Below, piece by piece: positions 13,981 through 16,753 of a stretch of 64,000 bases of DNA. Numbering within the stretch: position 1 is the first letter of the stretch; each line of letters begins with the position of its first letter. Below the pieces are notes generated by a model that was not told the origin of the DNA, did not search any database, and worked only from the letters and a program-made list of their open reading frames with translations. Position numbers and translations under genes: made by a program. Source of the stretch: Acidimicrobiia bacterium (lineage in GTDB: Bacteria > Actinomycetota > Acidimicrobiia > Acidimicrobiales > Poriferisodalaceae); assembly GCA_022826045.1 (NCBI GenBank), contig JAJDVQ010000028.1, positions 1-64,000 of the forward strand, read 5' to 3'.

Positions 13981-14487
13981 TCATCTCGTGGGCTGGTTGA
14001 TGAGGTGGGTGGCGGCATTGTCGAAGTGGGCGAACATGGCCTGAGCGATGTCGGGATCGAGTGGGGACCCGTCTGGCAGCTGCGCCGTTTCGAGCGAGGC
14101 AACCATGTGTCGCATCCAGGCATTGCGTTCGGCCGGCCCGATGGCGAAGGGCATGTGACGCATGCGCAAGCGTGGGTGGCCGCGTTCCGCGCTGTAGTCG
14201 GCGGGCCCGCCCCAGTACTGGGCCAGGAAGCCCGCCAGACGGTGCCGAGAGGGTCCCATGTCGGCGGGATACATCGGCCGGAGCAGCTCGTCCTGCTCGA
14301 CTGCGTCGTAGAAGCGATCCACCAGATCGTCGAAGAACTGCTGACCGCCGACTGCTGCGAACACTGTCGGCGGCTGCTCGACGGCCTCGGCCAGGCTGCC
14401 GCCCAGCGTCAGCCCGCCCGCACCCCACGCGGCTTCCTCGCGTGGCGGGGAGTGTTCGCCCGCTGGGGTGGTGTCGGCCTCGGTCAC
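13981..14487 (-). CDS. Group II truncated haemoglobin (GlbO-like)
   Basis: 168 residues: about 40 residues of unstructured leader, then a 2-on-2 globin. TVFAAVGGQQFFDDLVDRFY is the A/B region, LLRPMYPADMGPSRHRLAGFL the E-helix region, and YWGGPADYSAERGHPRLRMRH contains the proximal-side motif with the F-helix histidine expected at RMRH. The YWGGP and H/PRLRMRH signatures match actinobacterial trHbO. Expected haem protein for O2/NO chemistry in the cytosol. No partner gene is adjacent. Confidence 0.88.
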   Translation of the reverse strand: MTEADTTPAGEHSPPREEAAWGAGGLTLGGSLAEAVEQPPTVFAAVGGQQFFDDLVDRFYDAVEQDELLRPMYPADMGPSRHRLAGFLAQYWGGPADYSAERGHPRLRMRHMPFAIGPAERNAWMRHMVASLETAQLPDGSPLDPDIAQAMFAHFDNAATHLINQPTR

Positions 14488-14706: not shown

Positions 14707-15657
14707 ATGGCGTTGACAGAACGGCCCCAGCGGACGACGAACGGGCGCAAGCCGGATGGGCGGCGGGCGCACCGGTCGTACCTCAGCTACATCGACAAGT
14801 CGCGCGAGTACTACGCAGCCCACGGCTACCCGCAGCCCTACCAGTGGGCGTACAGCCACGAGGTGGCATTCGCTCCGCTCCCGAAGCCGCTGTCGGAATG
14901 CACCGTCGGGCTGGTCACCACCTCGTTCTTCGAGAAGGGCCGCGAACCCGCGGGAGTGCCGGCGGCCCGGCCCAAGCAGCCCTACGCCGCCCGCTGCGAC
15001 GATGCCCTCGCAGGCCTGTACAACAGCGACCTCTTCTGGGACAAGGACAACACCCACACCGAGGACCTCGACACCTACCTGCCCATCAACCGGCTGCGTG
15101 AGTTCGAGGCCGAGGGGCGCATCGGTGCACTGTCTGAACGCTTCTACGGGATCCCCACCGACTACAGCCATCGCCGCACCCAGCGCAACGATTCGCCCCG
15201 CATCGAGGAGTGGATGCGCGAAGACGGCGTGGACGTTGCCTTCCTGGTACCGCTCTGACCGGTGTGCCACCAGACGATCGGTCTGATCGCTCGACACCTG
15301 GAAGAAGCCGGCATTCCCACGGTGGTTGCCGGAAGCGCCCGCGACATCGTGGAGGAATGCGGCGTCGCCCGGTTCGTGTTCACCGATTTCCCGCTGGGGA
15401 ACCCGACCGGCAAGCCCGGTGACGCCGACATGCAGCGCGCCATCGTGAGCACGGGGCTGGAGCTGCTCGAGCACGCGTGGATGCCGCGCACCACGGTGCA
15501 GACGCCGTTCGTGTGGGATGCGGACGACAACGACGGCTGGCGTGACCACTTCATGCGCGTCGACGACTCGAACCGGGCCGCGCTGGCGGCGGCCGGCGAG
15601 GCGCGCCGCCGTGATCAGGCCGCGGCCAAGTCTGACGGCCGCGCCCGGACGAGCTAG
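14707..15657 (+). CDS. Selenoprotein of the glycine/sarcosine/betaine reductase B (GrdB-like) family, UGA = Sec184
   Basis: ATG 14707 with GGGAG just upstream. The frame has a single UGA at 15256-15258 and then continues unbroken to TAG at 15655-15657, giving 316 residues if UGA is read as selenocysteine. Context is DGVDVAFLVPL-U-PVCHQTIGLIARHLE: a UxxC redox motif (U184, C187) directly before a conserved helix. Downstream ARFVFTDFPLGNP and TTVQTPFVWDAD continue the same family. Homology clearly spans the UGA, so this is not two genes. A hairpin follows the UGA at SECIS distance. True GrdB works with GrdA/GrdC in anaerobic amino-acid reduction; no such partners are seen, so these short homologues probably do another thiol/selenol redox reaction. 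Function unassigned. Confidence 0.9.
15261..15298 (+). promoter_or_regulatory. Candidate bacterial SECIS hairpin for the GrdB-like gene
   Basis: Begins two nucleotides after the UGA at 15256-15258. Outer arms GGTGT (15261-15265) and ACACC (15294-15298); inner perfect stem CAGAC (15271-15275) with GTCTG (15281-15285); apical loop GATCG (15276-15280). The loop lies about 18-22 nt downstream of the UGA, within the range SelB recognises in bacteria. It is embedded in the coding sequence, as bacterial SECIS elements are. Confidence 0.7.
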
Positions 15658-15775: not shown

Positions 15776-16753
15776 ATGACTCAGCGCAAGCCGCTGTTCG
15801 ATCCCGCAGACGCCGACGCGCCCGACTTTGTGCCGTCTGAGCCAGCCGGTGCCGATGTCTATTCGCACCCCTCCGAGCACGGTGAGCGCATTACCGACAC
15901 GCTCGTCCCCGACGTCATGATCGAAGCGTCGGGAGGTGTGACGGTTGCCGCCGACCTCTACGGCGACGACGGCCCGCTGGTCCTGCTGCAGCACGGCGGC
16001 GGTCAGACCCGCCACGCCTGGAAGGGGGCGGGCCAGGCCTTGGCCGACGGCGGCTACCGCGCCGTGTGCCTCGACGCCCGGGGTCATGGCGACTCGGACT
16101 GGGCGCCCGACGGCGACTACACCACCGAGGCATCGGTGGCCGACTTGGTGGCCGTCGTGGAGCACTTCGGCGAGCGGCCGGTGCTCGTCGGCGCCTCGAT
16201 GGGCGGGGGAACCTCGCTGACGGCGGTCGGCGAGGGCGCCGTGGACGCGCTGGCACTCGTGCTCGTCGACACCGCGCCGCGGATCGAAGCAGCCGGCGTG
16301 CGCAAGATCCGCGAATTTATGGCCCAAGGCACCGACGGTTTTGCTTCGCTTGAAGAGGTCGCCGAGGCCATCGCCAGCTACCAGCCGCACCGCAAGCGCC
16401 CGCGCAACCTGGACGGGCTCGCAAAGAATGTGCGCCTCTGGCCCGACGGCCGCTACCGCTGGCACTGGGATCCCGCCTTCATGCATCGGCCGCGCAGCTT
16501 CGCCGAGCGCGTCCCCCGCCAGCAGGCCGCTGCGGAGAACCTGACGCTGCCGACCTTGCTGGTGCGCGGCGGCATGAGCGACGTGCTGTCAGAGGAAGGC
16601 GCTCAGTCGTTCCTCGACACGGTGCCGCATGCGCACTACGCCAACGTGGGCGGCGCGGCGCACATGGTGGCCGGCGACCGCAACGACATCTTCGTCGAGG
16701 CGACGCTCAAGTTCCTGGCCGAATTCGTGCCCGGCGCGCAGGCGCGAGCCTGA
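15776..16753 (+). CDS. Alpha/beta hydrolase
   Basis: 325 residues; ATG 15776 preceded by GAAGGG. Alpha/beta hydrolase fold: [17 protein letters not shown] oxyanion region, [19 protein letters not shown], nucleophile elbow VGASMGGG with Ser141, cap helices, then [13 protein letters not shown] and C-terminal GAAHMVAGD with the catalytic His. Members hydrolyse esters, epoxides or C-C bonds; substrate unknown. Located 118 nt after the selenoprotein gene, same strand. The first 50 residues are an acidic extension not needed for the fold. Confidence 0.88.

Follow-up and report, generated by a model that had tools for sequence, protein, structure and literature searches.

The B subunits of D-proline reductase (PrdB) and glycine reductase (GrdB) have a partner subunit of the GrdE/PrdA type, which forms a pyruvoyl group. 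PrdB-type selenoproteins are already known from marine bacteria. In 2005, 42 PrdB-family selenoprotein genes with a UxxC motif were reported from the Sargasso Sea (PMC1088965), and 235 PrdB-type genes, among the most abundant selenoproteins in the GOS samples, were reported in 2008 (PMC2398784). Proline-reductase selenoproteins outside the clostridia, e.g., in Anaeromyxobacter, were catalogued in 2006 (PMC1794560), and a 2026 review gives D-proline reductase (TIGR04483, UxxC) as a selenoprotein family (PMC13188914). PrdB-type proteins are among the commonest selenoproteins in surveys of the surface ocean, yet they carry the name of an anaerobic fermentation enzyme; the Sargasso and GOS proteins were named by homology to proline reductase. 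The gene described here joins these proteins, which it resembles in its UxxC motif and its family. Surface-ocean source is a further point of likeness, and the relatives L009 to L023 of our gene include marine Acidimicrobiia. Our literature searches, which covered mainly open-access papers, turned up no study of what the stand-alone form does.

The window analyzed here is a stretch of 64,000 nucleotides from an uncultured Acidimicrobiia bacterium. The gene lies on its forward strand at 14707-15657, with an ATG start at 14707 and a TAG stop at 15655-15657, and its frame contains a single in-frame TGA at 15256-15258, which is codon 184. Standard annotation would break such a gene at the UGA, leaving two short ORFs, and the conventional reading indeed gave ORFs of 183 and 131 residues, as the initial annotation of this DNA had anticipated. 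If the TGA is instead read as selenocysteine (Sec184), the product has 316 amino acids. The translation verified both that the frame runs uninterrupted across the UGA and that it creates the previously noted U184-P-V-C187 redox motif, in which Cys187 (TGC, 15265-15267, forward strand) is the likely resolving thiol. The earlier observation of family-like sequence on either side of the UGA also held, as the alignment to TIGR04483 covers residues 54-268 and spans the TGA. We predict that the UGA is recoded as selenocysteine and that the gene encodes one selenoprotein of the PrdB/GrdB superfamily, and we assign this reading a probability of roughly 0.93.

The initial annotation had called the gene GrdB-like. 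This label is right as to the GrdB/PrdB superfamily, but the closest family is PrdB and the GrdB models match weakly. The best match to a named family is to the PrdB model of NCBIfam, TIGR04483 (1.1e-26), at 93.7 bits against an equivalog cut-off of 300 bits. Pfam GRDB (PF07355) falls short of its cut-off of 22 bits with a score of 19.8, while the GrdB model TIGR01917 matches at 5.6e-10 with 38.7 bits against a cut-off of 602, and TIGR01918 matches at 2.4e-10. The homology across the active site is significant at the level of the superfamily, and the same five models match all 40 members of our alignment. Judged by these matches, PrdB of D-proline reductase is a nearer relative of the protein than GrdB is.

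PrdB of clostridia and enterococci is homologous to the window protein over residues 54-268 and has Sec at the same position; its motif is U-G-T-C-H where the window protein has U-P-V-C-H, so that both consist of UxxC followed by His. Identity to the clostridial and enterococcal proteins is 26-30%. However, the window protein adds about 50 N-terminal residues and a C-terminal tail, and its gene does not have the PrdA/PrdC gene neighborhood. GrdB (PF07355, TIGR01917) belongs to the same superfamily, and its active site, when aligned, likewise has an in-frame UGA. The GrdB models run to about 430 residues, however, and the window protein matches only the C-terminal third. Moreover, four true-GrdB genes from genomes with the PF09338 subunit (see below) have the motif U-G-T-G-T-R-C, unlike UPVC.

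In the phylogenetic tree, whose root is arbitrary and whose deep branching order is unsettled, an identical relative (L001) stands for the window gene. It falls in a strongly supported clade of long-form proteins. Nine of the members have Sec and belong to Acidimicrobiia or their order; the other three have Cys and come from Roseomonas, Haematobacter and an actinobacterial genome. Clostridial PrdB stands apart in a long-branched clade of its own. Sec and Cys have been exchanged several times: well-supported branches require the Cys label to have changed four times or more. The Roseomonas (WP_207415257.1) and Haematobacter (WP_035710215.1) proteins are named in RefSeq as 'glycine/sarcosine/betaine reductase selenoprotein B family protein', a family name for which a literature search found nothing. 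They are 41-43% identical to the window protein over about 80% of its length, N-terminal extension included, but have Cys (TGC) in place of Sec, have other neighbors and come from another phylum. The analysis adds to this known kind a long-form subfamily with Cys orthologues in Alphaproteobacteria, an alpha/beta hydrolase gene conserved as a neighbor in most of the members from Acidimicrobiia, and a related variant with a UxxU motif.

We scanned a collection with one genome per species for relatives of the gene, and obtained 25 that are 56-100% identical and belong to Acidimicrobiia or related actinobacterial metagenome assemblies. In all 25, TGA at codon 184 is the sole in-frame stop, in the context LVPL-U-PVCHQT. 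When a profile was run against a wider sample, 396 genomes from the same phylum, 77 had a family match, and the PrdB-like homologues fetched from this sample have only TGA or TGC (Cys) at the site. At the equivalent codon, the PrdB genes of Peptoclostridium, Terrisporobacter and Enterococcus carry an in-frame TGA (U-G-T-C-H), and TGC stands there in two alphaproteobacterial homologues. Homologues therefore have Sec or Cys codons at position 184, which is what the initial annotation had suggested looking for. Among close relatives, purifying selection is as strong after the TGA as before it, with dN/dS of about 0.04-0.11 on both sides. Cys187 is one of six invariant columns in the 40-sequence alignment; D120, P126, T205 and G235 are also invariant, and H108, G137, G140, R222 and P229 are nearly so.

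Downstream of the UGA is a SECIS-like hairpin whose core, CAGAC-GATCG-GTCTG, occupies 15271-15285 on the forward strand, i.e., +16 to +30 counted from the U of the UGA. This core, a 5-bp stem with a 5-nt loop, is conserved across the family at a fixed distance. All five pairs are formed in 72 of 78 TGA sequences and in none of seven Cys homologues. Over the 78 different TGA sequences, 96.4% of pairs are formed, versus 60.3% (SD 2.2) in shuffles that exchange codons for synonyms according to each gene's usage. The observed pairing is about 17 SD above the shuffles, a figure that is not to be read as a probability because the 78 sequences are related by descent. Pairing at any other offset within 150 bases reaches at most 64.1%, and several pair types are swapped at the same stem columns. 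The comparison thus reveals a hairpin within the coding sequence that would direct decoding of the UGA.

It is important to note that the case for a SECIS rests on this comparison, because the window's hairpin is unremarkable when taken alone. Folding of the region after the UGA, which had been proposed earlier, gives a SECIS-like stem with comparative support, but the z-score of the single sequence against dinucleotide shuffles is -1.46. Folding energy relative to synonymous shuffles is only weakly informative for individual sequences (mean z of -0.6 for the TGA genes), probably because the stem is short. An Rfam scan of the window gave no match. As for the hairpin first described, its 5-bp stem is real and conserved, but its outer GGTGT/ACACC arms are not. 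We rejected these arms as a conserved element, since they are present in the window and altered in most relatives. Four TGC homologues (L101, L102, L103 and L104) are found in genomes that retain selB, and they lack the complete 5-bp stem; this pattern is consistent with replacement of Sec by Cys.

The genome that contains the window gene (G000) comprises 3.64 Mb in 104 contigs and is 90.8% complete. The initial annotation had pointed to selA, selB, selC and selD as genes to search for, and all four are present. On contig C18, selB (267.6 bits, over the cut-off) is immediately preceded by selA (PF03841, 5.9e-97), and the same contig carries selC (67 bits; identified by ARAGORN as a tRNA-Sec with anticodon tca). 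The window itself has no tRNA according to ARAGORN; selC is on another contig. The fourth gene, selD (352 bits), is on contig C90. Across the phylum sample of 396 genomes, selB, counted at E-values up to 1e-60, occurs in 70 of the 77 genomes with a family match (14 of which carry the true-GrdB type of match) and in 158 of the 319 without one (Fisher p = 4e-12). Several of the seven family-match genomes without selB are incomplete.

The same genome has further Sec-containing genes. Its selD (L049, G000:C90:12620-13573) has an in-frame TGA at the active-site position (GAG-U-ACK), so SelD is probably itself a selenoprotein. There are also two divergent Sec paralogues that are 30-32% identical to the window protein, namely L047 (G000:C68:7383-8162) and L048 (G000:C45:583-1719), the latter extended at its C-terminus by about 100 residues and followed by an MFS-transporter-like gene.

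These data bear on two other explanations of the locus. If the TGA were a genuine stop, the result of a pseudogene or a sequencing error, two separate ORFs would remain, and a GTG at 15262 does provide a start for the 131-aa ORF that follows the 183-aa one. However, the identical TGA in 25 other assemblies, the conserved SECIS-like stem, the Cys found at this site in homologues, the purifying selection downstream of the TGA and the complete Sec machinery led us to reject both a pseudogene and a sequencing error, and we regard a genuine stop as extremely improbable. Sequence comparison could hardly make the selenoprotein reading firmer. A different proposal is that the protein is a true PrdB, or the B subunit of a glycine, betaine or sarcosine reductase, serving Stickland-type amino-acid reduction. 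While the superfamily homology (1.1e-26 for TIGR04483, about 1e-10 for the GrdB models) and the identical Sec position agree with this proposal, a score of 94 against an equivalog cut-off of 300 and a clade apart from clostridial PrdB do not. The partner subunit also argues against it. We searched for the GrdE/PrdA-type subunit as PF09338, and there were no matches in the window gene's genome, although at 90.8% completeness its absence is not certain. The initial annotation's remark that anaerobic partners are missing nearby can thus be extended genome-wide for this subunit. As a control, the same search finds PF09338 in 15 of the 396 phylum genomes, and in 14 of these 15 a weakly matching gene of the true-GrdB type shares the contig with it at a distance of about 3 kb or less; true-GrdB genes in the sample adjoin the subunit, whereas the window gene does not. 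We therefore consider a true PrdB or GrdB very unlikely.

Downstream of the selenoprotein gene, after 118 bases, is a gene on the same strand (15776-16753) for an alpha/beta hydrolase (Abhydrolase_1, Pfam 7e-20). This hydrolase, 72-98% identical, adjoins the selenoprotein gene in 24 of the 25 relatives, and it is a possible operon partner. Five other window neighbors were tested, and none of them occurs in the second subgroup of relatives. A truncated hemoglobin (Bac_globin, Pfam 1.5e-28), divergently transcribed from the reverse strand at 13981-14487, is present in 10 of 25 loci and is conserved in the nearest relatives only; a DEAD-box helicase is a further neighbor in the window. For the long-form members L025 and L052, no hydrolase was found in the roughly 1.5 kb of downstream sequence covered. 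In 14 relatives (L009 to L023 except L020, a subgroup that includes marine Acidimicrobiia), the selenoprotein-hydrolase pair is inside a fixed gene block with acyl-CoA dehydrogenase, MaoC, acetyl-CoA hydrolase/transferase, enoyl-CoA hydratase, zinc-type alcohol dehydrogenase and APH-type genes, though not all of these genes were observed at every locus. This acyl-CoA-type block may hint at the substrate class.

An AlphaFold2 model based on 17 sequences has a confident alpha/beta core (pLDDT of about 75-92 around the active site; overall pLDDT 68, pTM 0.71). In this model, the UPVC motif is located between a strand (177-181) and a helix (187-200) of a Rossmann-like alpha/beta domain. A sequence search of solved structures had no hits with the protein alone, with the profile it yielded no convincing relative, and Foldseek gave no match below 0.001 against the PDB. 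VIA-align returned only generic Rossmann-like or periplasmic-binding-like folds, which are uninformative on function.

On the selenoprotein reading, SelB and Sec-tRNA(Sec), directed by the downstream hairpin, decode the UGA at 15256-15258, and the product is a stand-alone member of the PrdB/GrdB superfamily. A catalytic mechanism can be proposed more tentatively. We infer that the selenol of Sec184 would attack an electrophilic substrate, that Cys187 would resolve the intermediate as a selenenyl-sulfide, and that a cellular dithiol would then re-reduce it; the neighboring alpha/beta hydrolase may process the same compound. The B subunits of D-proline and glycine reductase are proposed to use similar chemistry, there with a pyruvoyl partner. 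Both PrdB and GrdB depend for catalysis on this pyruvoyl subunit, which we did not find; as the mechanism is borrowed from them, this counts against it. The catalytic roles given to Sec184 and Cys187 are more doubtful than the decoding and, in our estimate, less likely than not.

As to function, our proposal of a selenol-dependent reductase acting with the neighboring hydrolase is likewise tentative and less likely than not. In a broader form, the long-form clade would be a distinct selenoenzyme found in bacteria that live with oxygen; it would reduce a specific carbon electrophile with no pyruvoyl subunit and share one pathway with the adjacent hydrolase. This broader form is somewhat unlikely as stated; if true, it would extend GrdB/PrdB chemistry beyond anaerobic amino-acid fermentation. 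The protein could instead be a general thiol or selenol redox protein, e.g., a peroxide or disulfide reductase, with no specific carbon compound as its substrate. A UxxC motif between strand and helix is also seen in thioredoxin-like enzymes, and both the stand-alone gene and the divergent Sec paralogues in the same genome fit such a role. However, the model is Rossmann-like, the conserved residues outside the motif and the homology to PrdB/GrdB suggest a substrate pocket, and 14 relatives are within the acyl-CoA-type gene block. We view a general redox role as a serious possibility that still has the odds against it. The function of the subfamily is testable, given that there are Sec and Cys versions, a constant neighbor, and Cys orthologues in cultured Roseomonas and Haematobacter.

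Two homologues, L071 (G114:C19:14657-15349) and L072 (G081:C4:547402-548091), begin and end the motif with TGA, so that it would read U-P-I-U. The 5-bp SECIS-like stem is missing at the usual offset from the first TGA, but counted from the second TGA, which follows 9 bases later, it is perfect (5/5 pairs, loop CGTGC). These two genes are candidates for a bacterial UxxU protein, a variant related to the window gene.
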